DNA from: Candidatus Accumulibacter necessarius
GTDB lineage: Bacteria; Pseudomonadota; Gammaproteobacteria; Burkholderiales; Rhodocyclaceae
Length of the DNA: 64,000 bases
Direction: 5' to 3'
Assembly: GCA_017302435.1 (NCBI GenBank)
Contig: JAFLDL010000022.1
Coordinates: forward strand, 16,671-80,670
The notes under the pieces were generated by a model, which saw only the letters and a program-made list of their open reading frames with translations, was not told where the DNA came from and searched no databases. How positions within the stretch are numbered: position 1 is the stretch's first letter; every line of letters begins with the position of its first letter. Of the stretch, positions 1,913 to 40,021 are shown piece after piece. Position numbers and translations under genes: made by a program.

Positions 1913-1937
1913 TGTAGGAGCCCGATTCATCGGGCGA
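1913..1937 (-). repeat. Family A REP
   Basis: One copy of the REP palindrome (core CCCGATGAATCGGG) with its CTCCTACA tail, reading on the minus strand. It lies 19 bp upstream of the RAYT-A gene and 12 bp after the beta-CASP stop codon. Confidence 0.9.
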
Positions 1938-1955
1938 CTTCTTCGCTAACGAACC

Positions 1956-2402
1956 GTGCAACCCGCTCAACCCCATGCCCGGAATCTGCGACAGGGGCGG
2001 TATTCTCAGGCCGGACAGATCTATCTGCTGACCCTGGTGACCGCCGGACGAGAACGCGTCTTCCAGGATTTCAGCGCAGCGCGCAGGGCGGTCCGGGCCT
2101 TTGGTGAGCAAGCGGTACGCGACTACGGCACCACCCTGGCGTTTGTGGTCATGCCCGATCACGTCCATTGGCTGCTCGAGCTTGGGTCAGAGGGAGGGGT
2201 CAGCGCGGCCGTGCGCGTCTATCGTGCCAAGGTCAGCCTGGCCCTCGGCCGGCGAATCTGGCAGAAGGGATTCTATGATCGCGCACTGCGCCGCGACGAA
2301 GATCTGGTTGCCGTCGCCCGCTATGTCGTCGGCAACCCGGTGCGTGCCGGGATCGTTGACCGTGTGGGCGATTACCCGCATTGGGATGCGGTGTGGATTT
2401 AG
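1956..2402 (+). CDS. RAYT-A: REP-associated tyrosine transposase (Y1, IS200-like)
   Basis: A 148-residue Y1-type HUH protein. The HUH motif is H69-V-H71 (in MPDHVHWLLE) and the likely catalytic tyrosine is Y123 in the family signature ARYVVGNPVRAG. RAYTs are domesticated IS200/IS605-like single-strand endonucleases thought to mobilise their cognate REP hairpins. This gene is bracketed by family A REPs: one inverted copy upstream and three copies downstream, the arrangement expected when a RAYT is the cognate enzyme of that family. The start is ambiguous: the first in-frame start is GTG at 1956, and no strong ribosome-binding site is seen. It differs clearly in sequence and repeat partner from the second RAYT at 39306. 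Confidence 0.88.
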   Translation: MQPAQPHARNLRQGRYSQAGQIYLLTLVTAGRERVFQDFSAARRAVRAFGEQAVRDYGTTLAFVVMPDHVHWLLELGSEGGVSAAVRVYRAKVSLALGRRIWQKGFYDRALRRDEDLVAVARYVVGNPVRAGIVDRVGDYPHWDAVWI

Positions 2403-2410
2403 AAAGACGA

Positions 2411-2586
2411 TCGCCCGATGAATCGGGCTCCTACATTGTCTGCTACCCGTTTCGGGATGCGGCGAGGATCTGCGCGGTCGGACGTCACGGGATCGCCCGA
2501 TGAATCGGGCTCCTACATTGCCTGCTACCCGTTTCGCGATGCGGTGATTTGGACCGCACACCGTAGGAGCCCGATTCATCGGGCGA
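2411..2586. repeat. Cluster of three family A REPs (REPIN arrangement)
   Basis: Three copies downstream of RAYT-A: 2411-2435 (+), 2493-2517 (+) and 2563-2586 (-). The last two are inverted relative to each other, the layout called a REPIN. The spacers of the first two copies share the segment TTGCCTGCTACCCGTTTCG or a near variant, so the unit was duplicated with flanking sequence. Confidence 0.88.
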
Positions 2587-2653
2587 TCGTCCTTCCCCGA
2601 TCGCGTATGGCGCCTCCAACATTGCCGCTGCCGGGGACTTCCCGTATCATTTG

Positions 2654-2670
2654 CGTTCACGATTTGAACG
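2654..2670. promoter_or_regulatory. Dyad upstream of the EPS MarR regulator
   Basis: An interrupted palindrome, CGTTCA-5-TGAACG, ends six bases before the ATG of the MarR-type regulator. The position suits an autoregulatory operator. No binding data exist here, so the role is inferred. Confidence 0.35.
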
Positions 2671-2676
2671 AACACC

Positions 2677-7309: not shown

Positions 7310-7333
7310 GTAGGAGCCCGATTCATCGGGCGA
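7310..7333 (-). repeat. Family A REP
   Basis: Minus-orientation copy of the CCCGATGAATCGGG palindrome. It directly abuts the broken 5' end of the nucleotidyltransferase fragment that follows. Confidence 0.88.
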
Positions 7334-7552: not shown

Positions 7553-7562
7553 GGAAATGCCG

Positions 7563-7573
7563 ATACTGTCCCC
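7563..7573 (-). repeat. Family B end (solo)
   Basis: A short ATACTGTCCCC segment, the complement of the family B terminus, lies 25 bp upstream of the Rpn gene. Confidence 0.55.
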
Positions 7574-7597
7574 TCATTTCAACCTGACGCCTTCACC

Positions 7598-8605
7598 TTG
7601 AACCCGCCATCCGAAACCGCCGTCGCCAACGACGATTACGACACCCCCTGGAAAGACGCCGTCACGCGCTACTTTCCTGAGTTCATCGAGTTCTACTTTC
7701 CCGACGCGCATCGGCAGATCGACTGGAACGGCGGTTACACCTTCCTTGATCAGGAACTTGCCCAGATCGTCAAAGATGCCGAACTCGGCAAGCGTCTCCT
7801 CGACAAACTCGTCCAGGTTGCCACCCACGACGGCGGCGAACACTGGGTGTACGTCCACATCGAAGTGCAAGGTGGCCAGGAAGGTGACTTCGCCGAACGC
7901 CTCTTCACCTACAACTACCGCCTCTACGACAAATATCGCCGCCCCATCGCCAGCCTCGCCGTTCTTGCGGACGATCGCCAACACTGGAAGCCGCAGACTT
8001 ATGGCTATGAGCTCTTCGGTTGCCGGCACTACCTCGAATTCCCCACCGTAAAGCTACTCGACTACCAGCCGCAAACGCAGGCCCTGCTGGTCGACCCCAA
8101 CCCTTTCGCTCTGGTTACTGCCGCTCATCTGCTCACCCAGCAAACCAAAGGCGACGACCGGCAAAGGCTGGCTGCAAAATGGCGGCTAGCTAAACTGCTC
8201 TACGAACGTAACTGGGACAAGCAACGCATCATTGACCTGTTCAGCGTCATAGACTGGATGATGCAAGTGCCCAAAGACCTGCAAAATCAACTCTGGCAAG
8301 ACATCGAACAACTGGAGAGGAACCGAACCATGCCCTACATCACCTCGGTAGAACGCATCGGCATTGAGAAAGGCATGCAGCAAGGCATGCAACAAGGCAT
8401 TCAACAAGGCATGCAGCAAGGCATGCAGCAAGGCATACGGCAAGGGGAGTCAGCCCTCCTCGAGCGCCAACTCACCCGCCGTTTTGGCCCGCCCAGCGCG
8501 GAGACAGTGGCTCGGCTGCAGGCGGGCACCGTCGAACAACTGGAACAGTGGGCCGAAAACATCCTTGACGCCACGACGCTGGAAGATGTCTTCAAGGATC
8601 ACTGA
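7598..8605 (+). CDS. Rpn-family recombination-promoting nuclease with DUF4351 tail
   Basis: A 335-residue PD-(D/E)XK-type protein of the Rpn/transposase_31 group. The N-terminal nuclease domain (about residues 10-230) includes VYVHIEVQGGQEGDFAERLF, where the E and Q of EVQ match the expected catalytic strand. A run of GMQQ/GIQQ tetrapeptides follows at about 256-281, then a DUF4351 tail (LLERQLTRRFG ... TLEDVF). In E. coli, Rpn proteins promote RecA-independent recombination and some act in phage defence. The start is TTG 7598; no ATG lies nearby that keeps the domain. The tetrapeptide run is encoded by 12-bp DNA repeats, so its length can change without a frameshift. Two related genes are in this window. 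Confidence 0.85.
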   Translation: MNPPSETAVANDDYDTPWKDAVTRYFPEFIEFYFPDAHRQIDWNGGYTFLDQELAQIVKDAELGKRLLDKLVQVATHDGGEHWVYVHIEVQGGQEGDFAERLFTYNYRLYDKYRRPIASLAVLADDRQHWKPQTYGYELFGCRHYLEFPTVKLLDYQPQTQALLVDPNPFALVTAAHLLTQQTKGDDRQRLAAKWRLAKLLYERNWDKQRIIDLFSVIDWMMQVPKDLQNQLWQDIEQLERNRTMPYITSVERIGIEKGMQQGMQQGIQQGMQQGMQQGIRQGESALLERQLTRRFGPPSAETVARLQAGTVEQLEQWAENILDATTLEDVFKDH

Positions 8606-8709
8606 CCATTTGACGCACTGGACAAGCAGGGCCGGTTCCGGTTATCGAGCACGCTTGTCTGTCGTAGGGCGCAATACGCGGCGCATCGCGCCATCGGCAA
8701 CCGCGCACC

Positions 8710-9399
8710 ATGATCATTCAACGGTTCGCGTCCGACGGACAGCGATTCGGCTTCATCTGGAGGAGACACTGTGGCGGGAAAAATGGCCTGTCGCGGTGGG
8801 TGTGGGTATGCAACGTCGTCACCACGGTGGTGTACTTCATTGGCAACCGCAGCGCGGAGATCCTCATCGATGCCCTGCCGGGCAGCCTGAAGTGCTATCG
8901 CCCGACGAACCGCTACTTTCTGCTCGAGGAAGCGAGCGTCGGGGAAGCGCAACTGGCCGACGAGTCGAACACGGTCGGCGGCATCATCCGGATCGAGAAG
9001 AGTGGTACGCCCGCGGACATCCGTCGAGCCGTCGCGCGGCTTCACCAGCGGCTGCAGGGTGCGCAGTACGACAGCCCGCGCCGGGCGCTGGTGGGATGGA
9101 TCAACCGGGTCGTACTCCGCCGGCTGATGCCCGGCCAGGCGATCCCGGAAGTCAACGAACTACAGGAGATCGACGCCATGCTGGCGGAAGCCGTAGATAG
9201 CTGGACAAGGCAGTGGAAGGAAGAAGGCGGCCTCGAAGGCGAGAGCACGCTGCTGCAGAAGCTTTTTGAGCGCCGTTTCGGGCCGCTGCCGGAGTGGGCA
9301 CGCCAACGGCTCGCGGAGGCGACGGGCGAGCAACTGGAGGCCTGGGCGCTCGAAGTCCTCGACGCCGACACACTCGAGGGCGTGTTCGAGAAACGGTAA
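8710..9399 (+). pseudogene. Rpn/DUF4351 protein remnant lacking the nuclease domain
   Basis: From about 8830 the frame matches the second half of Rpn-type proteins: a VVYFIGNR strand (normally VLYNGxR), then LIDALPGSLKCYRP and a DUF4351 tail LLQKLFERRFGPLP ... TLEGVF. The N-terminal catalytic half is missing, and the first 40 residues of the open frame look like unrelated sequence. Translation from ATG 8710 is possible, but the product would have no nuclease active site. It sits head to tail with the intact Rpn gene but differs strongly from it, so it is a separate family member that decayed. Confidence 0.7.
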
Positions 9400-9420
9400 C
9401 GGTATGCTTTTCTTGCCTAG

Positions 9421-9708
9421 ACGGTACGCTTCGGCGACTTCAACGGACGCCATGTTGCCGTCTGGGGACTGGCATTCAGGCCGAACACCGAAGACCTGCG
9501 CGAAGCGCCGAGCCGGACGCTGCTCTCCGACCTTTTCGCCACGGGGGCGACCGCGACCGCGCACGCCCCGGTTGCCATGGAAGCGGCCCGGCGCGTCCGC
9601 GGCGACGAGGTCTGCCTGATCTACCTGAGCCATCCGCGGACAGCGCTCGAAGCGCTTGGTGAGCGGGCTGGTCTCTGGAAGGTATTTCATATACTGTCCC
9701 CTTATTAG
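9421..9708 (+). pseudogene. Diverged fragment of UDP-glucose 6-dehydrogenase
   Basis: Frame 1 reads RFGDFNGRHVAVWGLAFRPN and then EDLREAPSRTLL, the hallmark of the C-terminal UDP-binding domain of Ugd, followed by a decayed PVAMEAARRV segment. Both ends of the gene are missing, and the frame runs into a family B repeat that supplies the stop. The sequence differs from the three ugd copies at 26845-34600, so this is an older or separate duplicate rather than part of the recent cassette expansion. Confidence 0.75.
9672..9701 (-). repeat. Family B end with extended flank
   Basis: TCTCTGGAAGGTATTTCATA followed by TACTGTCCCC. The same 30-bp string occurs at 10910-10938, and a near copy at 14581-14606, so the flank moved with the end. 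Confidence 0.75.
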
Positions 9709-10087
9709 CCGGGAAGTCTTCAATCAACGCCGACAGTAGCAAGGCACCGCACCCCCCAGCCGCTTGTCAGACCGAAATCTGCTGTTCCGAGGTCAGGGAC
9801 CGTCGCGGAAAAAAATCTCGCCATGCTCCACGTACAGCTCCGACCGCTTCGGAATTGAACGAGGATAGCAACCCGGAGGCCGGGAGCTGTGGCAAGGAGG
9901 CGTCAACGTGTTCTCGATGTCGAGAGAAAACTATACTGTCCCCTTTTTTACCCACCCCTGTAGGAGCCCGATTCATCGGGCGACTAAGGCCTACCCCCCA
10001 TTTTTTGCCGAACCGACGTGTTGCTCTCGAAACCGGAGCTTCGGGTGGGTAGAACCGACTTGCAGGCCATTGTTGAGGGAGGTCGAT
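9709..10087. other. Gene-free spacer with one family B end and one family A REP
   Basis: No credible gene. The spacer holds a family B end in minus orientation (9931-9943) and a family A REP (9959-9983, minus). The two families are only 15 bp apart. Confidence 0.6.
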
Positions 10088-10525
10088 ATGAGCACCAGGT
10101 ACGAAACCGATGTCGTGGCATGGGCCAACGAGCAGGCCAGCCTTCTTCGTGCCGGGCGGTTTGAGCTGCTCGACCGCGACCACATCGCGGAGGAAATTGA
10201 AGACGTGGGCAAGAGCGAACAGCGCGAACTTGCGAGCCGGATGTCGGTTCTTATGGCCCATCTGCTCAAGTGGCGACATCAGCCGGAGCGGCGGGGAGCC
10301 AGTTGGGAAAAGACCATCCTCGCACAGCGCAAGGAGATTGCCTATGGACTGAGTGACGCCCCAAGCCTGACCCCCAAGCTTCAGGAAACGCGATGGCTTG
10401 AGATGGTGTGGGCCAAGGCTGTCGCTCAGGCGGTTGGGGAAACCGGCCTTGATTGCTTTCCCGACACCTGTCCGTGGGCGATGGAAGAAGAAGTCCTCAA
10501 TGATGACTGGCTACCGGATGCCTGA
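10088..10525 (+). CDS. DUF29 family protein
   Basis: A 145-residue protein with the DUF29 pattern: YETDVVAWANEQASLLRAG at residues 5-23, the DHIAEEIEDVGKSEQREL helix, LLKWRHQPERRGASWEKTI, and a C-terminal CPWAMEEEVLNDDWLPD. The function of DUF29 is unknown. It is abundant in cyanobacteria and some environmental proteobacteria, usually in accessory regions next to TA modules and transposons, as here. ATG 10088 is preceded by a GAGGGAGG-like ribosome site. A diverged copy of its 3' end plus downstream sequence recurs at 13083. Confidence 0.85.
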   Translation: MSTRYETDVVAWANEQASLLRAGRFELLDRDHIAEEIEDVGKSEQRELASRMSVLMAHLLKWRHQPERRGASWEKTILAQRKEIAYGLSDAPSLTPKLQETRWLEMVWAKAVAQAVGETGLDCFPDTCPWAMEEEVLNDDWLPDA

Positions 10526-10978
10526 AGACACGCATCGCTAGTAGCCGATCCCGGCGCCGGCACGTCACCAGGCGGACAAGGGCTTGCGCAGTACCAGCGG
10601 TGGTACGGCGTCGGTTGCAGGGCAATTGCTCAACCGTCGGCAAGGCAGGGATACACCAGCTGCAGGCGTCTTTTCGTGGTCAGGATAGTTGGCTGGTGCA
10701 CGACTTCGATACGCTCATGACGATGGAGCGCTCAGCACTCGCGCGGCAATCCAAGTGGTTTATCTTTTTGTTCTTGAGGAATAACTGGTTGTACGAACTG
10801 CGTTTGCGCTTGCGCGGGAATGAGGGTTTGCTGGCGCCGCCCCAATTATTGCAGCCCCCGCGGCCGCGCGCCTTGACTGAGGTCAGCTGAGGTTATTGAG
10901 TGGGCGCGTCTCTGGAAGGTATTTCATATACTGTCCCCGTTTTTCCACCATCCTTCGCCCGGCGCCAACGAACGTGCC
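10526..10978. other. Gene-free spacer, 5' part duplicated at 13130
   Basis: No recognisable gene. The first 170 bp match, with many changes, the segment 13138-13315, and both follow a DUF29 end. A family B end with the extended flank lies at 10910-10938 (minus). Confidence 0.55.
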
Positions 10979-11009
10979 GGTATTTAGCATGATCATGCTA
11001 GTATTTAGC
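10979..11009. promoter_or_regulatory. Perfect palindrome between direct repeats, upstream of HTH-MNT/HEPN
   Basis: TAGCATGATCATGCTA (10985-11000) is a perfect 16-bp palindrome. It is flanked by two copies of GTATTTAGC (10979-10987 and 11001-11009), the second ending one base before the ATG. The position over the transcription start suits an autorepressor operator for the winged-helix antitoxin. No Shine-Dalgarno is visible, so the message may be leaderless. Confidence 0.6.
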
Positions 11010-11010
11010 C

Positions 11011-11578
11011 ATGTCACTCGCCAGCGCTCTATTCACGGAAAGCCAGTCCCGCCTGTACCCCTGGCTGTTCGGCCAGCCCGAGCGCAACTTTCACCTGAGC
11101 GAACTGCGCCGCTTGACCGGGCTGGGCAGCGCCTCACTACAAAGGGAACTGAATCGACTCGCCGCAGCGGGCTTGGTGCACGCCGAGCGGGTTGGCAACC
11201 TTCGCCGTTTCCAGGCGAACTCTCTCAGTCCGGTCTACGACGAGCTGGTCAGTCTGACACGCAAGACACTGGGCGCCGAGCCCCTGTTGCGCGAGGCGTT
11301 GCAACCACTCGTCCCATCGCTGGAAGCAGCCTGGATATATGGCTCAGTCGCCAAGCGAACCGACACTGCGCAAAGCGACATCGACCTGATGCTGGTGGGC
11401 CACGACCTCCTGCTCAGCACCGTAATGGAAAAACTGCTTCCCCTCGAAGCCCAACTGGGGCGCAAGATCAACCCCTCCTGCTATACGCCGGCCGAATTCG
11501 ACCGGCGGCGGGCCGAACCGGAGTCCTTCGTGAATCGTGTTCTGGCCCAGGACATCATCCCGCTGATCGGGCCGTCCC

Positions 11579-11601
<23 letters not shown>
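11011..11601 (+). CDS. Winged-helix-MNT nucleotidyltransferase fusion (antitoxin of an MNT/HEPN pair)
   Basis: A 196-residue two-domain protein. Residues 1-90 form a winged helix (FHLSELRRLTGLGSASLQRE). Residues about 100-180 form a minimal nucleotidyltransferase with YGSVAKRTDTAQSDIDLMLVG, which keeps both GS and D-x-D active-site elements. In characterised MNT/HEPN systems the nucleotidyltransferase modifies and neutralises the HEPN ribonuclease. A fused DNA-binding domain would also allow autoregulation. The gene overlaps the HEPN gene by 23 bp, and the palindrome just upstream is a likely operator. Confidence 0.85.
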
Positions 11602-12761: not shown

Positions 12762-13508
12762 GACCGCCAGTCGCGTCCTGGTCGCGGGCCTCACCAGCCA
12801 GAATCACCCGCCTGCCACACGCTCTATCCACGTTGCAGAAAGACTCGAAGGCGGCCCAGCTGGCCCTTTCTTGCCAGCCATCTGCGACCATGTAGCCGGC
12901 CAGAGCAACGCGATTCGCGTCAGGGCTCGCGCAGCGCAAGCAGAGACCCCATGGACCACCCATCCACCCCCGTAGGAGCCCGATTCATCGGGCGAATCAG
13001 GCCTCGGGCGAATCAGGCCTCTGGCGAGGCATCAGGCGAGGCATCAGGCGAATGAACCAAATGAGAGGCCTCCCCGACGCCTGTCCCTCGGCGATGCCAG
13101 AACAAGCCCTCAATGATGCCTGGCGACCGGATGCCTGAAGACACGCATAGCGACCAGCCGCCACCCGGCGCCGTCACTTCACCAGGCAGCCAAAGGCTTC
13201 CGCAGCCCCCCGCGGCGGTGTAGCGAGCCCGCACCGCAGGGCAATTGTCCAATCGTCTGCCAAGCCCGCAACACGCCAGCCTCAGGCGTTTTTTCCTGGT
13301 CGGCAACCATCGCCCAGAAAGCCCATGGGCGACCCTGTCTGCAGCGGCACACGAGGCTCGGCGCCGGCTCCACTGAGGGGACTGCTCGGCGCAACTGGCG
13401 ACCCAGCCGCCCGGCGCCAGCAAGAAGCTCCCGATCGTGCTTAGCGTGTCGGCGCAAAAAGGAGAGCCGTCGTGGCCAGCGCAGGTTTTCAGGTCGTTGG
13501 TAGTCTGC
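12762..13508. other. Gene-free spacer with a REP, short direct repeats and a DUF29 3' remnant
   Basis: No gene is supported. Contents are a family A REP at 12972-12995; short direct repeats GCGAATCAGGCCT (x2) and GGCGAGGCATCA (x2) at about 12993-13048; and 13080-13137, which matches the last 20 codons of the DUF29 gene with changes. The homology to 10526-10690 continues to about 13315. Confidence 0.6.
12972..12995 (-). repeat. Family A REP
   Basis: Minus-orientation REP. The tail GGGCGAATCAGG is then partly re-duplicated downstream. Confidence 0.85.
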
Positions 13509-25344: not shown

Positions 25345-25568
25345 TAATTCGGGGCAATAAGTATTTCCGGGGCTTTTTGGCCGACCGTCCGCGGATTATT
25401 GCTCGCGGTCGAGGTGACCGGGAGGATCTCCACCTCACAGTCAGTTTCTTCTGCAAGCTTGGCGATCCACGAGCCGGGCCCTGTGAAACAAGGGACAGCC
25501 TCTCAATCGTCTCGCGAGTTCAAATCGCTACAGCGTAATCCGGCGAGTCCGGGATGGGGTCAGCCCGT
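25345..25568 (+). repeat. Family B non-autonomous element, degenerate, without the family A palindrome
   Basis: TAATTCGGGGCAATAAGTAT is a decayed family B end. The body aligns with 29566-29814 and 38852-39060 (TTGGCCGACNGTCNGCGGAT, GTGAAACAAGGGACAGCCTC). At 25519-25535 it reads CAAATCGCTACAGCG where other copies have a 17-bp REP core between CAAATCG and CTACAGCG, so this copy looks like an empty site. Confidence 0.75.
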
Positions 25569-26844: not shown

Positions 26845-28173
26845 ATGAAAGTCACCGTTATTGGCACCGGCTATGTTGGCCTGGTCACCGGCGCATGCCT
26901 GTCGGAAATGGGCAACCACGTGCTCTGTCTGGATGTGGATGAGCGCAAGATCGAGATCCTCAACAGCGGCGGCATCCCGATCCATGAGCCGGGTCTGGAG
27001 CAGATGGTCAAGCGCAATGCCGCCGACGGCCGGCTGCAATTCACCACCGACGTCGTCGCCGCGGTGCATCACGGGACGCTGCAGTTCATCGGCGTCGGCA
27101 CGCCGCCGGACGAGGACGGTTCGGCCGATCTCCAGTATGTGCTGGCCGCCGCGCGCAGCATCGGCCAGCACATGACCGATTACAAGGTGATCGTCGACAA
27201 GAGCACGGTGCCGGTCGGCACCGCCGACCGGGTGCGCGCGGCGGTGCAGGAGGTGCTGGCCGAACGCGGCGTCAGCGTGGACTTTGCCGTCGTCAGCAAC
27301 CCGGAATTCCTCAAGGAAGGCGCCGCGGTCGACGACTTCATGCGCCCCGACCGCATCATCATCGGCGCCGACGACGAGCGCGCCCGGTTGCTGATGCGGG
27401 CGATCTACGCACCGTTCTCCCGCAACCGCGACAAGCTGCTGCTGATGGATACGCGCAGCGCCGAACTCACCAAGTACGCGGCCAACGCCATGCTGGCGAC
27501 GCGCATCAGCTTCATGAACGAACTGGCGCGGCTGGCCGAGCGCGTCGGCGCCGACATCGAGCTGGTGCGCCACGGCATCGGCAGCGATCCGCGCATCGGC
27601 ACGCACTTTCTCTACGCCGGCACTGGCTACGGCGGGTCGTGCTTTCCGAAGGATGTGAAGGCGCTGGTCCGCACCGGCCACGACCTGGGCGTCGACCTGC
27701 GGGTGCTGACGGCGGTCGAAGCGGCGAACGAAACCCAGAAGCGGGTGCTGGTCGACAAGGTCGTCGCCCGCTTTGGCGAGGATCTACAGGGACGCCGCTT
27801 CGCCCTCTGGGGCCTGGCCTTCAAGCCGGACACCGACGACATGCGCGAAGCGCCGAGTCGGGTGATCGTGCACGAGTTGCTGCACCGCGGCGCGACGATC
27901 CAGGCCTACGACCCGGTGGCGATGGACGAAGCGCGGCGGGTGTTCGGCGACCTGCCAGGGCTGAGCTTCGCCAGCCACCAGGCGGACGCCCTGCGCGATG
28001 CCGATGCGCTGCTGATCGTCACCGAGTGGCGCGAGTTCAAGAGCCCGGACTTCGAGCAGATGCGGGCGCTGCTCAAAGAGCCGCTGATCTTCGACGGCCG
28101 CAACCTCTTCGACCCCGCCCTGGTCCGCAGCCTGGGGCTCGAGTATCACGCCATCGGGCGCGGGGAAGCTTAA
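26845..28173 (+). CDS. ugd: UDP-glucose 6-dehydrogenase (intact copy)
   Basis: Oxidises UDP-glucose to UDP-glucuronate with two NAD+. The 442-residue protein is full length: nucleotide-binding [40 protein letters not shown], the active-site cysteine in [16 protein letters not shown], and the UDP-binding [17 protein letters not shown]. It lies 18 bp after the epimerase with an AGGAACG ribosome region. The TAA stop is also the first three bases of a family B element. Two shorter near-identical segments of this gene lie at 29815 and 33310-34599. Confidence 0.97.
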
Positions 28174-28590
28174 TTTCGGGGACAGTATATGTATCTTGGC
28201 AGGCTTCTGGCCGACAGTGGGCGGATTGTTGTGGGCAGTTGAGGTGATCGGGAGGATCGTCACCTCACGGTCAGTTCAAATCGCCCGATGAATCGGGCTC
28301 CTACAGCGTAATGTGGGTAGAGGCTGCTTCAAGCCACCCCAGCGCGTTGTGCCGAGAATTCGAGAATTCGGGGACAGTATATTTATCTGGGGGTGCTTCT
28401 GGCCGAAAGTCGGCGGATTGTTGCTCGCGGTCGACGTGGCCGGGAGGATTTCCTAGGAATCGGGGACAGTATATATAACTCGAAGGGGTGCACCGCCAGT
28501 TCGCCGATTGTTGTTGGGGCGTTGGCGCTGGAGGGATAGCGGACGGTGGATGGTGAGCTGTGCGAGGTTGCAATCAGGGTGCTGTCACCT
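28171..28590 (+). repeat. Compound family B element (three ends nested)
   Basis: It begins TAATTTCGGGGACAGTATAT, carries a family A REP (28281-28305) and the CTTCAAGCCACCCC module. A second family B end (28368) and a third (28461) follow before the right end GTGCTGTCACC at 28580-28590. It looks like one element invaded by others or rearranged. It starts at the ugd stop codon. Confidence 0.75.
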
Positions 28591-29565: not shown

Positions 29566-29814
29566 TAATTCGGGGACAGTACACATATCTCTAGGGGCTT
29601 TTGGCCGACGGTCGGCGGATCGTTGCTCGCGGTCGAGGTGACCGGGAGGATCTCCCTCTCACGGTCAGTTCTTTCTGCAAGCGTGCCGATCCACGCGCTG
29701 GGCCCTGTGAAACAAGGGACAGCCTCTCAATCGTCCCGCGAGTTCAAATCGCCCGATGAATCGGGCTCCTACAGCGTAATTTGGCGAGGCTAGGATGGGG
29801 TCAGGCGACACTTC
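29566..29814 (+). repeat. Family B element fused to a ugd 3' segment
   Basis: The end TAATTCGGGGACAGTACACA is followed by the body, a family A REP at 29749-29773, then GCGTAATTTGGCGAGGCTAG and AGGCGACACTTCG, where ugd sequence starts. The element lacks its usual right half. The same junction occurs at 34024. Confidence 0.8.
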
Positions 29815-30427
29815 GCTGGTGCGCCGCGGCATCGGCAGCGAACCGCGCATCGGCACGCACTTTCTCTACGCCGGTACCGGCTACGGCGGGTCGTGCTTTC
29901 CCAAGGATGTCAAGGCGCTGGTCCGCACCGGCCACGACATGGGCATCGACCTGCGCGTGCTGACTGCGGTCGAGGCGGCGAACGATAGCCAGAAGCGGGT
30001 GCTGGTCGACAAGGTCGTCGCGCGCTTCGGCGAGGATCTGCAGGGACGCCGCTTCGCCCTCTGGGGCTTGGCCTTCAAGCCGGACACCGACGACATGCGC
30101 GAAGCGCCGAGTCAGGTGATCGTGCACGAACTGCTGCGCCGCGGCGCGGCGATCCGGGCGTACGACCCGGTGGCGATGGACGAAGCGCGGCGGGTGTTCG
30201 GCGACCTGCCGGGGCTGAGCTTCGCCAGCCACCAGGCGGACGCGCTGCGCGATGCCGATGCACTGCTGATCGTCACCGAGTGGCGCGCGTTCAAGAGCCC
30301 GGACTTCGAGCAGATGCGGGCGCTGCTCAAGCAGCCGCTGATCTTCGACGGCCGCAACCTTTTCGACCCCGCCCTGGTCCGCGGCCTCGGGCTGGAGTAT
30401 CACGCGATCGGGCGCGGGGAGGCGTAA
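29815..30427 (+). pseudogene. ugd: ugd 3' segment, copy 2
   Basis: Encodes the C-terminal 204 residues of Ugd, nearly identical to 27561-28173, including the active-site [12 protein letters not shown] and the [17 protein letters not shown] region. The NAD-binding half is absent and no start codon or ribosome site serves it, so no working enzyme is expected. The frame is nonetheless undamaged over its whole length, so the copy is recent or its sequence is conserved by gene conversion. The stop TAA again coincides with the start of a family B element. Confidence 0.9.
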
Positions 30428-30746
30428 TTCGGGGACAGTATATTTATCTCTGGGTGCTTCTGGCCGCCAGTCGGCGGATTGTTGTGGGCAGTTGAGGTGA
30501 TCGGGAGGATCGTCACCTCACGGTCAGTTCAAATCGCCCGATGAATCGGGCTCCTACAGCGTAATTGTGGGGCGTGCCCGCCAAGCGCTGCCCTGAGGTT
30601 GCTTCAATCCACCCCAGCCCGTCGTGTCAGCGGGGGGTATGACCAATTACCCCGCGGGTGGTTGTTGCGAAGGTGGCGCTGGAGGGGTGAGGGCGGCGGC
30701 GGGTGAGCTGTCCGAGCTTGCCATTGAGTATACCGTCACCGAATTA
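30425..30746 (+). repeat. Family B non-autonomous element, near full length
   Basis: Left end TAATTCGGGGACAGTATATT and right end GAGTATACCGTCACCGAATT are inverted copies around a 322-bp unit. Inside are the GGCCGNCAGTCGGCGG hairpin, a family A REP (30534-30558), CTTCAATCCACCCCAGCCC and GAGCTGTCCGAGCTTGCC. No open reading frame of note. A short GTCACCGAATTA duplicate follows the right end. Confidence 0.85.
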
Positions 30747-30861
30747 GCGTCACCGAATTAGCAATTCGCAAGGGTCACTGGTTACCCCATAGCCCAGTTG
30801 GCGTGATCCATTCGGGCCGCCGCGGACAGGAATGCGGTCGGCCCGTCGCAGCAGGGGGTGT

Positions 30862-31884
30862 TCAGGATCGCTCGACGAACACGGCGTCCAGGGTCTGTGC
30901 GTCGAGCACGTGCTTCGCCCACGCCTCCAGGCGCTCCGGTTCAGCGCCTGCGAGCTGGCTCTCAACCCAGGGCGGTAAGGCTCCGAAGCGCCAGGTCAAC
31001 AACTGCTTCAGCAGCCGTGCTTCGCCTTGCTCGATTCCCTGCTCGATTCCCTTTTCAATTCCCCTTTCGATCCCTTTTTCGATCCCTTTTTCGATCCCTC
31101 TCTCCATCGCCTGTTGTTCCCATTGCTCGGCAATCGTCAGCATCAGTTCACCTCCACCACTCAAAGTTTCTGTCACTACCTGGCGCAACTCGTCACCGCT
31201 CAAGCGGTCGATGCTCGCCGCCTGCGCCAGGTACCGTAAAAGCGTACGGACATAGTCCAACCCGATTGAGCTCTGCGCGAGGTCCCGCAGCAGTCCCAGA
31301 ATTTCCGGCAGCCGCTCGCTCAACTCGTTCCGGAAGATGTACTTCAGGGTCAGCAGCGCCGTATGCAGCATGACCGCACCCTGCAGCTCGTCGTCCCGGT
31401 ATCCGCTCAAGTCGATCAGGTGATAGATACAGGCCGGCACATAGGCGCGCAGGGCCGGAGCGTCTTCTACCTCATCGGCGAATTGCCGGCTGACGCGCCA
31501 GGTCGCCGTGCCGTGATAGACCACGACCGGTACGACAACGGGCAGGCGGCCGGAATTCCCGGCGTTCAGCCATTGTTCCCAGATCCGCACGCGGTAACGC
31601 AGGAGGTCCAGGCCGATTCGCGACTCGACGTAGCTCTTGTGTTCGAACAGCACGTGTACATAGCCGGTTCCGCCGCTGCAGAGATCAACGGTGTACAGCA
31701 GGTCCGCGGGATGCAGCGCAAGTTCCGGATCGAGAAACGAATCCTTGGCCGTGCGCAAGGTCTTCCAGTCCAGTGCCTGTCCGGCTGCCGCCGGCAGATA
31801 ACGTTCCAGGAACTCCGCCGCTACCTCGGTCCGCCCGAACACCGCCTTGAAAAAGCGGTCGTGAGGGCTATTCAACGCCGTCAT
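30862..31884 (-). CDS. Rpn-family recombination-promoting nuclease (transposase_31)
   Basis: A 340-residue protein with the Rpn N-terminus SPHDRFFKAVFGRTEVAAEF and the catalytic strand YVHVLFEHKSYVESRIGLDL (E and K of FEHKS), then RLPVVVPVVVYHG. A GIEKGIEKGIERGIEKG run at about residues 263-290 and a DUF4351 tail follow. It is intact, unlike the fragment at 8710. The repeats are coded by 12-bp DNA units, as in the gene at 7598 but with a different consensus. It is the only minus-strand gene in the 15-40 kb part that is not a remnant. Confidence 0.88.
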   Translation of the reverse strand: MTALNSPHDRFFKAVFGRTEVAAEFLERYLPAAAGQALDWKTLRTAKDSFLDPELALHPADLLYTVDLCSGGTGYVHVLFEHKSYVESRIGLDLLRYRVRIWEQWLNAGNSGRLPVVVPVVVYHGTATWRVSRQFADEVEDAPALRAYVPACIYHLIDLSGYRDDELQGAVMLHTALLTLKYIFRNELSERLPEILGLLRDLAQSSIGLDYVRTLLRYLAQAASIDRLSGDELRQVVTETLSGGGELMLTIAEQWEQQAMERGIEKGIEKGIERGIEKGIEQGIEQGEARLLKQLLTWRFGALPPWVESQLAGAEPERLEAWAKHVLDAQTLDAVFVERS

Positions 31885-31985
31885 GTGCGATCTCCGCCAA
31901 CTCGCTGAAGCTTCATCCTATCACTGTCAGGACTGACGTCGCCACTCTGAACAAGAGAAAACTCGGGGCCGGTGCACTCAACTGA

Positions 31986-32051
31986 CCACCAGCCCTCGCA
32001 ACCTGGCCTACGCTTTGCGCCAGGGGGATACGCTGTTATTCGCCACCGAAT
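31986..32051 (+). repeat. Direct repeat, left copy
   Basis: CCACCAGCCCTCGCAACCTG ... GGGGGATACGCTGTTATTCG then CCACCGAATG. A related segment lies at 32867-32935. The pair brackets the transposase and ATPase remnants between them. Confidence 0.6.
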
Positions 32052-32062
32052 GAAGTGATTTC

Positions 32063-32140
32063 AAGGAATACCGTGACAGTATCCATAACTCTGGGAATAC
32101 GGTGACAGTGGGAATACGGTGACAGTATCCATAACTCGAA
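32063..32140 (+). repeat. Degenerate family B ends in tandem
   Basis: Three GGAATACNGTGACAGT units, two with the TATCCATAACTC continuation, lie within 78 bp. They look like eroded family B ends with C replacing the usual A in TATA. Confidence 0.55.
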
Positions 32141-32260
32141 GTGGTGTGAAGCCCAGGCAGCGAGCGGTCGGCCGGCACCAAAGGCCAGATGCTTGATCTG
32201 CTCACCGACCCCCTGCAGCGGGCCGATGTAATGGGAGTCGGTGATCAGATGGTCGAAGAG
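32141..32260 (-). pseudogene. DUF4338-type transposase fragment
   Basis: On the minus strand the frame reads DSHYIGPLQGVGEQIKHLAF then GAGRPLAAWAS, the conserved HYLG...YLVFD.GRPLA core of DUF4338 proteins linked to certain IS elements. Only about 40 codons remain. Confidence 0.55.
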
Positions 32261-32394
32261 TCCCTCCAGCGGCGTGCGGCGAACCGCCCGCAGTTCAACC
32301 GGGCGTAGGGCGTCGAGACGGCTTTCCAGTGGCGTTCGGTCCACCCCCGCCGGCAAGCGGCCGGCGCCGAGCGATGGCGTTGTTCGGCGGGCGG

Positions 32395-32580
32395 TGGCGT
32401 ACCGCGGGCAGGCGGATGTGTTCGGCCCGGTGGAGGACGAGCAGCAAACTGCAGCTGAGTTCGACGAAGGCTGGTGACTGCGGCGAGGTCCGCTCGCCTC
32501 CGGCCCGATCTCGATCTCCGATGTCAGCACCTTGAAGCTGCGTCCGATGTCTGCGAGCGACCTGTAACTTGTGACCACCG
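32395..32580 (-). pseudogene. Possible IS1634-type transposase fragment
   Basis: On the minus strand SYRSLADIGRSFKVLTSEIE resembles the YKSLADVERGFRVLKSEIEI segment of IS1634/IS4-group transposases. After a frameshift, CSLLLVLHRAEHIRL resembles the following membrane-like helix. The remnant is short, and the assignment is by motif only. Confidence 0.4.
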
Positions 32581-32675
32581 CGTCGGGTGGCACTGGATTG
32601 CCACGTCGGCTGCGCCTCCTCGCCATGAGGGTGGGTATCGGTAATCGGAGCGGCGTGGCCCTGCCGGTGCTGTAG

Positions 32676-32845
32676 TCAGCCTTCGGCAACTTGGGTTGCC
32701 AGTTCGAGCAGTGAGACGGCCTGGATGTCGTGGGCCATTCGATAGCGTTCCTGGCCGGGATAGACGACGAACTTGCGCGCGGGGGCCAGGTCTTCACAGG
32801 CGGCATGAAAGCCGCGTTCGACTTTTGGATTGAGGCTGAGGGAAA
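32676..32845 (-). pseudogene. C-terminal fragment of an AAA+ ATPase with DUF4143
   Basis: The minus-strand frame reads PKVERGFHAACEDLAPARKF then VVYPGQERYRMAHDIQAVSL, the end of the archaeal-type ATP-binding proteins that carry DUF4143. The gene is cut at its 5' side by a family B end at 32847. ATPase motifs are absent. Confidence 0.6.
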
Positions 32846-32846
32846 C

Positions 32847-32866
32847 GGGGACAGTATAGTTAACTG
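32847..32866 (+). repeat. Family B end matching the RAYT-B element terminus
   Basis: GGGGACAGTATAGTTAACTG is identical over 19 bases to the inverted repeat of the RAYT-B element (39253), closer than the TATATTTATC ends of the non-autonomous copies. It may be a footprint of that element. Confidence 0.7.
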
Positions 32867-32935
32867 CCCCACCAGCCCTCGCAACTTCCCCGGCGTTGCG
32901 TTAGCCGGATACGCTGTTGATCGCCACTGAATGCG
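32867..32935 (+). repeat. Direct repeat, right copy
   Basis: CCCACCAGCCCTCGCAACTT ... GCCGGATACGCTGTTGATCG then CCACTGAATG, related to 31986-32051. Confidence 0.55.
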
Positions 32936-33291
32936 TCTACAGCGGCATGCCCTTCGCCGAATGCGACAAGGTCGATCACCTGGTCAGCTGCGACCAGGAA
33001 GGTCAACGAGCTGATGGCGCACACCTACAGCCATCTCTGTCGCTTGCCGAACACTGGCCTGCGCTTCTTCACCGTAAACCGGTGCCCCTGATGGACTTCA
33101 TCGGCTGTCTCGATGAGCGGGTTGGGCGCCAGGCTGCGAAGCGCATGCTGCCGATGGAGGCGGGCGACGTGGCGGCCACGTGCGCCGACACCGCCGCCCT
33201 TGAACCATGGATCGACTTCGCGCCGAGCACACCGCCGTCTGCGGGCATAGTGCGCTTGGTCGATTGGTCTCGCCACTACTACCAGGTCTGA
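32936..33291 (+). pseudogene. Degenerate second copy of the UDP-glucuronate-type epimerase
   Basis: The frame reads [14 protein letters not shown], then after a jump [20 protein letters not shown] and DVAATCADTAALEPWIDFAP to the end DWSRHYYQV. This matches the last third of the epimerase at 25819 with an internal deletion of the segment that carries the donor-binding loop. The nucleotide-binding start is missing. It is followed by a ugd copy in the same order and with the same 18-bp spacing as the intact pair, so the epimerase-ugd pair was duplicated as a unit. Confidence 0.88.
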
Positions 33292-33309
33292 AAGGAAAGT
33301 TTTCCTCCG

Positions 33310-33844
33310 AGGAAAGTCACCGTTATTGTCACCGGCCAGGTTGGTCTGGTCACCGGCGCTTGCCTGTCGGAAATGGGCAACCACGCGCTCTGTCTGGATG
33401 TGGACGAGCGCAAGAGCGAGATCCTCAACAACGGCGGCATCCCGATCCATGAGCCCGGTCTGGAAGAGATGATCAAGCGCAATGCCGCCGATGGCCGGCT
33501 GCAATTCACCATCGACATTGCCGCCGCGGTGCATCACGGGACGCTGCAGTTCATCGGCGTCGGCACGCCGCCCGACGAGGACGGTTCGGCCGATCTCCAG
33601 TACGTGCTGGCCGCGGCGCGCAGCATCGGCCAGCACATGACCGACTACAAGGTGATCGTCGACAAGAGCACGGTGCCGGTCGGCACCGCCGACCGGGTGC
33701 GCGCCGCGGTGCAGGCGGTGCTGGCGGAACGTGGCGTCAGCGTGGACTTCGCCGTCGTCAGCAACCCGGAGTTTCTCAAGGAAGGCGCCGCGGTCGACGA
33801 CTTCATGCGCCCCGACCGCATCATCATCGGGGCGGACGACGAGG
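33310..33844 (+). pseudogene. ugd: ugd 5' segment, copy 3, start codon lost
   Basis: Aligns with 26845-27379 of the intact ugd. The ATG is changed to AGG at 33310 and the first glycine-rich loop is altered ([12 protein letters not shown] for [12 protein letters not shown]), so the NAD site is damaged. From about 33373 the frame is clean through [20 protein letters not shown], then stops at ADDEA where a family B element is inserted. The active-site half resumes at 34025. Confidence 0.9.
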
Positions 33845-33848
33845 CATG

Positions 33849-34024
33849 TAATTCGGGGACAGTATATTTATCTCGGGGTGCTTCTGGCCGACAGTCGGCG
33901 GATTGTTGCTCGCGGTCGACGTGGCCGGGAGGATTTCCACCTCACGGTCAGTTCAAATCGCCCGATGAATCGGGCTCCTACAGCGTAATTTGGCGAGGCT
34001 AGGATGAGGTCAGGCGACACTTCG
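33849..34024 (+). repeat. Family B element separating two ugd segments
   Basis: TAATTCGGGGACAGTATATT at the left, a GGCCGACAGTCGGCGG hairpin, a family A REP at 33958-33982, then GCGTAATTTGGCGAGGCTAG up to the ugd junction. About 180 bp of ugd (equivalent to 27380-27560) is missing across this point. Confidence 0.82.
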
Positions 34025-34599
34025 CTGGTGCGCCACGGCATCGGCAGCGACCCGCGCATCGGCACGCACTTTCTCGACGCCGGCACCGGCTACGGCGGAT
34101 CGTGCTTTCCCAAGGATGTCAAGGCGCTGGTCCGCACCGGCCACGATATGGGCGTTGATCTGCGGGTGCTGACTGCGGTCGAAACGGCGAACGATAGCCA
34201 GAAGCGGGTGCTGGTCGACAAGGTCGTCGCCCGTTTTGGGGAGAATCTGCAGGGGCGCAGCTTTGCCCTCTGGGGCCTGGCCTTCAAGCCGGACACCGAC
34301 GACATGCGCGAAGCGCCGAGTCGGGTGATCGTACACGAACTGCTGCGCCGCGGCGCGGCGATCCGGGCGTACGACCCGGTGGCGATGGACGAAGCGCGGC
34401 GGGTGTTCGGCGACCTGCCGGGGCTGAGCTTCGCCAGCCACCAGGCGGACGCGCTGCGCGATGCCGATGCGCTGCTGATCGTCACCGAGTGGCGCGCGTT
34501 CAAGAGCCCGGACTTCGAGCAGATGCGGGCGCTGCTCAAAGAGCCGCTGATCTTCGACGGCCGCAACCTCTTCGACCCCGCCCTGGTCCGCGGCCTGCG
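34025..34599 (+). pseudogene. ugd: ugd 3' segment, copy 3
   Basis: Nearly identical to 29815-30399 and to the intact gene from 27561 on, including [16 protein letters not shown] and [17 protein letters not shown]. It ends at LVRGLR, before the last 14 residues, where family B sequence begins. The upstream junction is the same as in copy 2, so both derive from one already truncated cassette. Confidence 0.9.
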
Positions 34600-34846
34600 T
34601 AATTCGGGGACGCGTAATTCGGGGACAGTATATGTATCTCTGGGTGCTTCTGGCCGACAGTCGGCGGATTGTGGCTCGCGGTCGACGTGGCCGGGAGGAT
34701 TTCCACCTCACGGTCAGTTCAAATCGCCCGATTAATCGGGCTCCTACAGCGTGATATGGGGCGTGAATCGGGGACAGTATATGTAACTCGAAGGGCTGGG
34801 CGGTTCGGGCTTGCGGGCTTGCAATTGAGTATACTGTCACCGAATT
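34600..34846 (+). repeat. Family B non-autonomous element, variant right half
   Basis: Starts with a tandem 15-bp stutter of the end (GCGTAATTCGGGGAC twice). It carries a REP with one change (CCCGATTAATCGGG, 34734-34758), a second internal family B end at 34770, and the right end GAGTATACTGTCACCGAATT at 34827-34846. Confidence 0.82.
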
Positions 34847-37976: not shown

Positions 37977-37977
37977 G

Positions 37978-38063
37978 CTGATGGTCCGCCATCGTTCCAA
38001 GGTGGCCTCGGCAACGCTCCAGCGCTTGGCCAGTTCTTTCTGGGTCATCAACTTCTCTTGCAT
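37978..38063 (-). pseudogene. Helix-turn-helix (AlpA/MerR-like) N-terminal fragment
   Basis: On the minus strand, from 38063 the frame reads MQEKLMTQKELAKRWSVAEA then TLERWRTISP, an excisionase/MerR-type winged-helix start. It is cut after 29 codons by the family B end at 37976. A start at the second Met (38048) is equally possible. Confidence 0.55.
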
Positions 38064-38234
38064 GTCAGCGTCTCTTCAGGAGTGTCGTCATGTCCCGGAT
38101 TTACGCGCTGCAAGCCCAAGAAGCCAAGCGACATGATGCTGGTGGTTCGCAACGTGGTCTTTACGGCTGCCAGCGATTGACTCAAGCCGTCAGGGTTGGC
38201 ATAATATGCCAATAGACATGAGATGGAGGTTGGC

Positions 38235-38516
38235 ATGCCTACGCGCAATGTTGTGCTCACCGAGCACCAAGCCTCGCTGGTCGAGCAGTTGGTCACCAGC
38301 GGTCGTTACCAAAACGCCAGTGAAGTTCTGCGTGAGGGTCTTCGTCTCGTTGAGCAACGCGAGGCCGAAGATGCTTGCCGTCTTGAGGCCCTTCGGTCTG
38401 CTGTGCAAATGGGGATTGCAGACATTGAGGCTGGCCGATTCAAGACCTTTGAAGCCAAAGAATCGCTGCGGGGCCAACTCAAATTCATCACCGACAAAGC
38501 GATCGCTGCTGCATGA
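38235..38516 (+). CDS. ParD-like antitoxin
   Basis: A 93-residue ribbon-helix-helix protein of the ParD/CC2985 type: NVVLTEHQASLVEQLVTSGR and YQNASEVLREGLRLVEQRE, followed by a toxin-binding tail rich in Ala and Glu. GGAGG six bases before ATG 38235 decides the start over the upstream in-frame ATG at 38223. It overlaps parE by 4 bp. Confidence 0.92.
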   Translation: MPTRNVVLTEHQASLVEQLVTSGRYQNASEVLREGLRLVEQREAEDACRLEALRSAVQMGIADIEAGRFKTFEAKESLRGQLKFITDKAIAAA

Positions 38517-38854
38517 GCTTTGTCTGGCAGATTCGGTTGGCAGAGCGAGCCGAACTGGATTTTCTCGACATCGCCGCATGGACTGCTGAGAACTTCGGCG
38601 CTCGCCAGGCAGAGTACTACGCCGAGACTGTGACGCTGGCGATTGAGGCCTTGCATGATGGGCCAGAAATTCTGGGGGCCCAAGCGCGGGACGATATTGG
38701 ATCAGGCATCCGCACCTTGCATGTGGCTCGGCAAGGCAGAAAAGGTCGCCATTTTGTGGTTTTCAAGGAAGCGGAAGGTCGAAGCATCGATGTCCTCCGA
38801 TTGCTTCATGACAGCATGGACTTGGCCAGGCATGTTCCTGTGGCCGGTCGGTAA
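38513..38854 (+). CDS. ParE/RelE-superfamily toxin
   Basis: A 113-residue toxin: WQIRLAERAELDFLDIAAWT, LGAQARDDIGSGIRTLHVAR and RHFVVFKEAEGRSIDVLRLL. ParE toxins inhibit DNA gyrase, but the class also includes RelE-type ribonucleases and the exact target is not proven by sequence. The TAA stop is the first codon of a family B element (TAATTCGGGG), so the repeat may have replaced the native last residues; the tail VPVAGR looks plausible for the family. Confidence 0.9.
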   Translation: MSFVWQIRLAERAELDFLDIAAWTAENFGARQAEYYAETVTLAIEALHDGPEILGAQARDDIGSGIRTLHVARQGRKGRHFVVFKEAEGRSIDVLRLLHDSMDLARHVPVAGR

Positions 38855-39209
38855 TTCGGGGACAGTATATTTATATCTGGGTTCTTTTGGCCGACAGTCG
38901 GTGGATTTTTGCTCACGGTCCAGGTGACAGGGAGGAGCCGCGCCTGACGATCAATTCGGTTGGCAAGCTTGCCGATCCACGAGCCGGACCCCGTGAAACG
39001 AGGGACAGCAAGGCAATCGTCCCGCGAGTTCAAATCGCCCAATGAATCGGGCTCCTACAGCGTATGCTTCAAGCCACCCCAGCCCATTGTGCGAGCGGGC
39101 GGTGTGATCGACTACCCCGCGGGTTGTTGTTGCGGAGGTGCGGCTGGAGGGGTAGAGGGCGGCTGCTGGGCTGTCCGAGCTTTCTATTGAGTATACTGTC
39201 ACCCAATTA
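38852..39209 (+). repeat. Family B non-autonomous element, longest version
   Basis: A 358-bp unit: left end TAATTCGGGGACAGTATATT, right end GAGTATACTGTCACCCAATT. It keeps the segment GTGAAACGAGGGACAGC and CCCGCGAGTTCAAATCG that the 30425 copy lacks, plus a REP with one change (39035-39059) and CTTCAAGCCACCCCAGCCC. It lies 43 bp from the RAYT-B element. Confidence 0.85.
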
Positions 39210-39252
39210 AGGTCACCAAATTAAGGCCAAGAACCACTTGTTTGTTAAAAAA

Positions 39253-40021
39253 GGGGACAGTATAGTTAACTCCACGGGATCACACAGACGGCCAGGAGGA
39301 CGACGGTGGCGAGAATTGCGAGGGTGGTGGCATCGGGCTGTCCGCATCACGTGACACAGCGGGGTAACCGGTGCCAGCAGACTTTTTTCTCCGAGGACGA
39401 TTATCGCGAGTACTTGCGCCTGATGTCAGCTTCGTGCGCGCGTACCGGGACGGAGGTCTGGGCTTACTGCCTGATGCCGAACCATGTCCACCTGATCATG
39501 GTGCCGCAGCATTCCGATGGGCTGCGAAGTGCGGTCAGTGAGGCGCACCGGCGCTTTACGCTTCGGATCAACGTCCGCGAAGGATGGCGGGGCCACCTTT
39601 GGCAGGAGCGCTTCCACTCATTCCTGCTGGATGAAACGCATTTGCTGGCTGCCGTTCGGTATGTCGAGAACAACCCGGTTCGTGCCGGGCTGTGCGCGCA
39701 CGCCGAAGACTGGCCGTGGTCCAGTGCCCGCGCACACTTGCGGGGTGAGGACGACGGGCTGGCAAGGGTTGCGCCGATGCTGGCTATGGTTGCGAACTGG
39801 CCAGAGTACCTGAGCGAAGCGACGGATCAGTCTCTGGCCGAAAAAATCCATGCTCACACCCGGACCGGGCGGCCGTTGGGCGAAGAGGCCTTCGTCGGAG
39901 AACTGGAAGCGCGGCTCGAGCGCAGGCTGCGGCCGCAGAAACGCGGTCCAAAGCCGAGATCGGAGACCGGCGAGTAGCGCGTTCTGATCGGTGCTGCGGT
40001 GGAGTTAACTATACTGTCCCC
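39253..40021 (+). mobile_element. RAYT-B element with perfect inverted repeats
   Basis: A 769-bp unit. GGGGACAGTATAGTTAACTC (39253 on) extends to a 23-bp repeat that recurs perfectly inverted at 39999-40021. The ends contain GTTAAC and share GGGGACAGTATA with all family B repeats. It encodes only the RAYT. The right end is fused to the last codons of the amidase gene. Confidence 0.9.
39306..39977 (+). CDS. RAYT-B: Y1-type REP-associated transposase
   Basis: A 223-residue HUH/Y1 protein. It has the N-terminus MARIARVVASGCPHHVTQRG, the HUH motif H60-V-H62 in LMPNHVHLIMV, WQERFHSFLLDETHLLAAVR, and the likely nucleophile Y119 in RYVENNPVRAG. A basic C-terminal tail follows (RRLRPQKRGPKPRS). It is longer than RAYT-A and belongs to a different RAYT group. 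GTG 39306 follows CAGGAGGAC. Being enclosed by the ends shared with the scattered GGGGACAGTATA repeats makes it the probable enzyme for that family. Confidence 0.9.
   Translation: MARIARVVASGCPHHVTQRGNRCQQTFFSEDDYREYLRLMSASCARTGTEVWAYCLMPNHVHLIMVPQHSDGLRSAVSEAHRRFTLRINVREGWRGHLWQERFHSFLLDETHLLAAVRYVENNPVRAGLCAHAEDWPWSSARAHLRGEDDGLARVAPMLAMVANWPEYLSEATDQSLAEKIHAHTRTGRPLGEEAFVGELEARLERRLRPQKRGPKPRSETGE

Follow-up and report, generated by a model that had tools for sequence, protein, structure and literature searches.

We analyzed a 64,000-nt stretch of the genome of Candidatus Accumulibacter necessarius (hereafter the window), which lies on contig 15 of an assembly of 4.56 Mb in 88 contigs. It carries the genes of two Y1 transposases, RAYT-A and RAYT-B, each associated with its own family of short repeats, and a set of short units in which a repeat of the first family lies inside a unit of the second. 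An earlier note on this DNA had listed these features, all of which were found, the six nested palindromes lying 3 to 7 bases from the positions it gave.

RAYT-A (1956..2402, + strand) is a repetitive extragenic palindrome (REP)-associated Y1 transposase (RAYT). It matched the RAYT profile NF047646 (NCBIfam REP_Tyr_transpos, cut-off 80 bits) with 124.1 bits and Y1_Tnp with 25.3 bits, and both the HUH (HVH) and the Y...NP (YVVGNP) motifs are present. Residue positions for reading GTAG have been given for RAYTs (PMC6006769), and when their numbers were transferred by matching the WQxxF motif, the WQKGFYDRALR stretch of RAYT-A (motif WQ....DR..R) fitted the GTAG-reading pattern W94, Q95, E/D100, H/R101 and R104 (DR..R). 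Copies of GTAGGAGCCCGATTCATCGGGC surround the gene (1914..2584) at 1914-1935 (+), 2413-2434 (-), 2495-2516 (-) and 2563-2584 (+), and the flanking palindromes were found at 1921 (-), 2414 (+), 2496 (+) and 2570 (-). RAYT-A and its GTAG-tagged palindromes are an ordinary REPtron.

The REPs of this type (family A) are few and concentrated. With at most one mismatch, CCCGATGAATCGGG gave 14 matches at 13 sites in the window, one being counted on both strands, where 0.04 were expected. A genome-wide search at up to 3 mismatches found 14 copies, each with 0 or 1 mismatch, 13 of them in the window and one elsewhere; the reversed pattern gave no match in the same search. Three copies lying outside the composite units described below are at 7310..7331 (C15:23980), 9960..9981 (16 nt from a solo repeat of the second family that ends at 9943) and 12972..12993 (C15:29642), all on the + strand. 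In a comparison of 28 genomes of the genus, this one included, three encode RAYT-A or an orthologue of it, and 14, 15 and 20 copies were counted in these when up to 2 mismatches were allowed. Since REP copies also occur in genomes without a close RAYT-A orthologue (8-16 copies in G001, G002, G004 and G026, and 1-5 in seven more), the pairing of family A with RAYT-A is looser than that of the second repeat family with its own enzyme. The REPs of G001, G002, G004 and G026 are orphan REPs.

RAYT-B (39306..39977, + strand, 223 aa) matched Y1_Tnp with 41.6 bits and NF047646 with 77.8 bits, slightly below the RAYT cut-off. The GTAG-reading residues are absent from its WQERFHSFLLD stretch. Among its homologues (the best 80 of 292 relatives, of which 79 could be scored), position 100 was S in 79/79 and position 104 was D in 74/79, whereas GTAG readers have E/D and R; HMMER's own alignment of RAYT-B to 4er8 is shifted by four residues from the WQERFHSFLLD match. 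A tail of ~80 aa follows the Y1 part; subclass 2.1 has a helix-turn-helix-like domain at the C-terminus, and for RAYT-B no second Pfam match was obtained at E 0.01. The gene is enclosed, as the earlier note had described, by a perfect 23-bp inverted repeat (39253-39275 / 39999-40021), which extends to 31 nt at 90% and has GGGGACAG at both ends, a terminal inverted repeat (TIR) of the GGGGWSAS type. The repeats around RAYT-B are thus TIRs and not GTAG palindromes, one REP lying ~250 nt upstream within the unit at 38858. The whole 769-bp element (39253..40021, + strand) is a TIRtron, and its equivalents in four relatives measure 767-777 bp. The names TIRYT and TIRtron were introduced in 2013 by Di Nocera et al., who noted that TIRtrons occur in REP-containing species and named two TIRYTs in A. 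phosphatis, taken here as Accumulibacter (PMC3733652). According to PMC6006769, the TIRtron probably corresponds to the subclass 2.1 of that paper, which cites Bertels et al. 2017 for RAYT group 1. Judged by its sequence, RAYT-B is a TIRYT in a TIRtron, an already described kind, and not a REP enzyme. The view of two RAYT/REP systems sharing one locus therefore stands as far as two distinct Y1 enzymes with distinct and nested repeats are concerned, but fails for the second system, which is of the TIRYT/TIRtron kind.

The TIR motif accompanies RAYT-B homologues also outside this genome. At the 80 homologous loci, it was found upstream in 77, downstream in 58 and on both sides in 57; this short motif would occur by chance in ~8% of such stretches by our own arithmetic, and the TATA that follows it is 82-96% conserved. 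The closest named relatives of RAYT-B are from Accumulibacter metagenome-assembled genomes (MAGs; 78-89% identity). With at most one mismatch, GGGGACAGTATA occurs 23 times in the window against 0.08 expected, and 16 of its 31 exact copies in the genome lie in the window. A close TIRYT (at least 78% identity) is present in 6 of the 28 genus genomes, which hold 81 of the 90 exact copies of GGGGACAGTATA, and the exact sequence is absent from 17 of the 22 genomes without a close TIRYT.

Ends of the TIRYT type mark a series of non-autonomous units (B units, all on the + strand here), which begin with GGGGACAGTATAT-TATCT, continue with ~100 nt of interior, an optional stretch of ~75 nt bordered by AGTTC (present in the long form, absent in the short form) and a REP site, and close, where the right end is kept, with TTGAGTATACTGTCACC. 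Units that keep both ends measure 221-346 bp. Six family A palindromes were confirmed within B units of the window. The unit at 28178..28369 (REP at 28284; no right end) stands at the stop codon of an intact gene at 26845..28173 (+), which we take to be UDP-glucose 6-dehydrogenase (ugd), and has an orthologue in G020. The others are 29572..29790 (long form, REP at 29752, no right end), 30431..30740 (short form, both ends, REP at 30537), 33855..34000 (short form, REP at 33961, no right end), 34621..34841 (REP at 34727; another TIR lies within the unit at 34770) and 38858..39203 (long form, both ends, REP at 39038), which adjoins the stop codon of a ParE-like gene. The palindromes at 34727 and 39038 are variants with one substitution each. 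A right end is recognizable in three of the six units (30431-30740, 34621-34841 and 38858-39203), and that of unit 34621 may belong to the second TIR nested in it. Two further units lack the REP: a truncated one without the REP region (28370..28461), next to which GAGAATTC is present twice as a tip microduplication (28354-28369), and a long-form one at 25345..25560, whose REP site reads AAATCG/CTACAGCG and is shorter by 17 nt.

The REP site was readable in 12 B units from five genomes, units that end before it being left out (28370 of the window and short matches in L224, L225 and L226). A REP occupies one and the same place and orientation in nine of the 12, six here and one each in G009, G020 and G006, so that REP-bearing composites exist in four genomes of the genus. 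Exactly 17 nt are missing in the other three (25345 of the window, G006 contig 100 and G007 contig 76). On the opposite strand, the two states read GTAG/CGAT and GTAG/GAGCCCGATTCATCGGG/CGAT. Unit 28178 and its G020 counterpart, both located after ugd, are orthologous (support 96/91 plus synteny), which places the nesting before the species split. When 199 genomes of the family were scanned for outgroup B units (three candidates scored per genome), long matches were found only in the genus of the window; matches in other genera were short, with E values of 4.9e-5 or weaker. Empty sites of other REPs were set aside as comparisons, since the difference from copies with a REP is not confined to the REP itself and extends over 40-50 nt around it.

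Most of the composites in the window border ugd DNA. A 3' fragment of ugd (29795..30427, +) lies between two B units, and a broken copy (33373..34600, +) is split by unit 33855. Self-comparison aligned 27561-28317 with 29815-30571 (93.8% over 758 bp; ugd plus B unit), 29741-30576 with 33950-34765 (91.9%; ugd plus B units) and 26606-27378 with 33071-33843 (91.7%; ugd DNA). Units 28178, 30431 and 34621 stand at 3' ends of ugd and share ~600 bp of ugd, units 29572 and 33855 have a common ugd junction, and only 38858 and the REP-free 25345 are apart from ugd copies. Throughout 26845-34600, copies and fragments of ugd are interleaved with TIR units and with an Rpn-type nuclease gene (30862-31884, PF04754); the same was seen at locus L221, and several ugd and Rpn-like matches in G007 have a similar setting.

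Beside the TIRs, we found tandem copies of the repeat tip together with its flank. In the window, a 15-nt unit is present twice at 34597..34626 (+), with the inner breakpoint at +6 (GGGGAC/AG) and no microhomology. Direct repeats of at least 10 nt were scored in 63-nt windows outside the TIRs, and windows on the inner side, distant windows and shuffled sequences served as controls. Among the ends of homologues (126 of 160, after 25 without the motif and 9 with a short flank were removed), direct repeats were found in 49 outer, 3 inner, 3 distant and 0 shuffled windows. The 78 distinct TIRs of the genus, a set that overlaps the homologues in a few Accumulibacter ends, gave 18, 2, 1 and 0, respectively. 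Perfect tandem duplications adjoin 28 of 212 ends, and the inner breakpoint of these 28 is at +6 in 10 and at +8 in 9. Microhomology is 0-1 nt in 23 of them, whose outer breakpoint is at -7 in 8 and at -9 in 9; in the 11 without any microhomology, the inner breakpoint is at +6 in 6, +8 in 4 and +14 in 1. Doubled tips were also sought by a separate pattern search across 398 genomes of the phylum; 15 genomes, one of them the present one, had such tips, and the reversed pattern was absent from all. Thirty loci were fetched from this search, with 27 sites in other genomes. Of these sites, 17 are perfect duplications; microhomology is 0-1 nt in 15 of the 17, and the ends are at +8 in 9 and +7 in 3, the pattern being blind to breakpoints before +6. 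To judge from record titles, stuttered ends occur in homologues from several phyla. Since six loci from named isolates (L055, L059, L060, L071, L092 and L123, the repeat of L092 being weak at 8 nt) are among the 38 ends with tip repeats, assembly error in MAGs is unlikely to be the whole cause.

How the REP came to lie in the B units can be considered from its two-state site, which would fit insertion or precise loss 3' of GTAG, although a hairpin deletion would leave the same product. RAYT-A or an orthologue may have placed the REP 3' of GTAG in one B unit, or later removed it, through a single-strand step. If the REP-free units were instead hairpin deletions, the REP could have been in the B unit from the start, and 1 nt of microhomology would suffice. 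We regard this as a serious contender with somewhat less than an even chance, because the junction is identical at two loci (25345 of the window, and G006/G007), which requires either one deletion that spread or two identical ones, and because eight of the 14 family A copies of the genome, one of them beyond the window, lie outside B units and only six within. The earlier note had proposed that one family inserted into an ancestor of the other. This agrees with the REP-free alleles and with the common position of the REP, but the tree of B units gives it no direction. Neither of the two outcomes that the note would have counted against its view was seen, since most family A copies are free of B units and homologues of RAYT-B are accompanied by the TIR motif. 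The further proposal of the note, amplification by the second enzyme, is weak for this locus: the composite would have multiplied in the window mainly through duplication of the ugd DNA beside it, B units marking the junctions, and the ugd duplication blocks make a TIRYT step unnecessary for most of the copies here. Movement of B units driven by TIRYT is possible, and the TIRYT-type ends of B units, their copies at several loci and genomes, and the deletion derivatives and MITE-like units of ~94-148 bp (miniature inverted-repeat transposable element, MITE) found elsewhere are in keeping with it. Nevertheless, TIRYT transposition is an unlikely source of the copies in the window, as ugd copies matching over blocks of 750-840 bp lie next to five of the six REP-bearing units, all eight long B units found in the genome are on a single contig (40 of 50 candidates scored), and no clean empty site was found.

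As for the stuttered ends, the favored inner breakpoints and the little microhomology suggest an end made by an enzyme rather than by slippage. TIRYT, an HUH enzyme, may nick its own repeat near GGGGAC^AG or GGGGACAG^TATA, at +6 to +8; copying would stop at the nick and resume ~7-12 nt outside the repeat, so that flank and tip would be duplicated in tandem with nearly blunt joints. We infer the nick, the strand and the re-copying alike. That TIRYT makes such border duplications, adding a flank-plus-tip unit of 10-19 nt per round and so building stuttered arrays, is a tentative proposal, which we hold at roughly one chance in three. Replication slippage beside a hairpin-prone inverted repeat, without TIRYT, is less probable still. 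TIRs can fold, and arrays such as the 9-nt units at L125 look slippage-like once a first duplication exists, but slippage is expected to use microhomology and to end at varied positions, whereas 23 of the 28 perfect cases have 0-1 nt of it and 19 of the 28 end at +6 or +8, and the further set of 17 duplications outside this genome agrees on +8. Moreover, the inner sides of TIRs showed repeats in only 3/126, and the palindromic REPs of family A in 0/36 on the 5' side and 3/36 on the 3' side. It is also rather improbable that the tip copies stem from an element that inserted again and again at one place and was excised imperfectly, with an outer half-TIR staying there after every round. Such leftovers would account for units whose ends are mostly at +6 or +8 and whose starts are close to where the TIR consensus stops on its outer side (-7 to -9), and L002 has an outer half-TIR without the rest; however, both ends of an element should be marked together, and among the 55 elements scored at both ends this was the case in 2, against 11 with one end only (4 left, 7 right) and 42 with neither. 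By our own reading, an element also frequently has unit flanks at its left end that are unlike those at its right end.

Combining these parts, we favor, with a probability of about 0.55, an explanation from the sequence data in which a REPtron and a TIRtron, an old nesting of REP in TIR units, multiplication driven by ugd duplication and stutter from TIRYT nicks would together account for the locus. Several observations weigh against it. In the tree of B units, from which unit 28370 was excluded, gain and loss of the REP were not separated (2 changes; AU p 0.44 and 0.33), and the REP-free sites retain GTAG and CGAT, the two ends of the REP, as hairpin deletion would leave them. Unit 38858, folded as single-stranded DNA, was not more stable than its shuffles (z 0.42). 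A clean empty site was found for none of the B units: unit 38858, whose site was the one compared with relatives, two in number, showed no simple insertion, and unit 33855 took the place of ~180 bp of ugd. Most ends carry no stutter, and within an element the left end is affected independently of the right. A microhomology of 1 nt makes a breakpoint uncertain by 1 nt, both control windows are imperfect, as the inner one contains coding sequence and the distant one may do so, and the repeats on the 3' side of REPs count on the same side.

Further features of TIRs were noted in the window and in related loci. Solo TIRs form arrays mostly in one orientation at 7562-14606 of the window and at L284, L285 and L286. 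At 7573, an open reading frame (ORF) with DUF4351 (7598-8605) starts 24 nt from the GGGG end, which points towards it, and two homologous ORFs of L286 (9264-10307 and 13407-14390) are likewise placed 45 and 12 nt from a TIR. Read outward, the TIR gives TATACTGTCCCC, which resembles a -10 box. It is a guess that the one-way arrays are integron-like, and another that TIRs serve as outward promoters (TATACT). Deletion derivatives of the TIRYT element that keep both TIRs are present at L025 (C40; 407 bp) and L228:5550-6077 (528 bp), and MITE-like TIR pairs were seen at L003, L030, L272 and L283, two of them adjacent at L030. The TIR consensus from 135 ends has an AATTCC-like stretch on either side of GGGGACAGTATAC, at about -6 and +16, an iteron-like arrangement. 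At 32065-32129 of the window, tandem tip copies of GGAATACGGTGACAGT stand without a full element pair nearby.

The REPtron and the TIRtron themselves are known kinds. What is new is an old composite of a REP in a TIR unit with REP-filled and REP-free alleles at GTAG, which allows the entry or exit of a single REP to be tested at a single site. Also new is a sequence signature next to TIRYT repeats that suggests a cut position. If TIRYT does make the border duplications, stuttered ends would be a readable record of TIRYT activity in several phyla, and the border reaction of TIRYT could be one source of short tip-like repeats. Subclass 2.1 is the second largest (PMC6006769), and the action of TIRYTs on TIRs was left to future assays (PMC3733652); thus, as far as these sources go, the class is common and little tested. 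Border microduplications outside TIRYT repeats were not described in the partly accessible literature that was searched, which misses most subscription journals, nor was a REP inside a TIR unit in the accessible TIRYT literature.

Among known systems, TnpA-REP 4er8 was matched by both enzymes of the window. IS200/IS605 elements encode enzymes of the same Y1/HUH family, and the TnpA chains 2xma, 2xm3 and 2fyx weakly matched RAYT-B; to our knowledge, IS200/IS605 elements lack TIRs. Their ends are described as subterminal secondary structures (PMC6006769), whereas the TIRtron has perfect TIRs. RAYT-A shares with REPtrons of the GTAG-1 type the GTAG-GA-palindrome-GA units in both orientations beside the gene (PMC3733652, PMC6006769), but family A is small, at 14 copies, all but one of which lie no more than 38 kb from RAYT-A. 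With the described TIRYTs and TIRtrons, the RAYT-B element has in common a Y1 domain with HVH and Y...NP, a long C-terminal tail and GGGGWSAS TIRs around the gene (PMC3733652, PMC6006769). TIR repeats were reported absent from A. phosphatis (PMC3733652), whereas 31 exact copies and MITE-like units are present here. B units resemble MITEs in being short, non-coding and TIR-bounded, with ends common with an autonomous element, the TIRtron, and differ from them in that they show neither a target duplication nor a clean insertion. Fusions of GTAG-1 and TIR repeats in Pseudomonas putida and P. fluorescens likewise join a REP unit with a TIR-type repeat (PMC3733652); in the fusions, however, the TIR is made up of degenerate REPs next to unrelated stem-loops, whereas the REP here is enclosed in a TIR-bounded unit at some distance from the unit ends.

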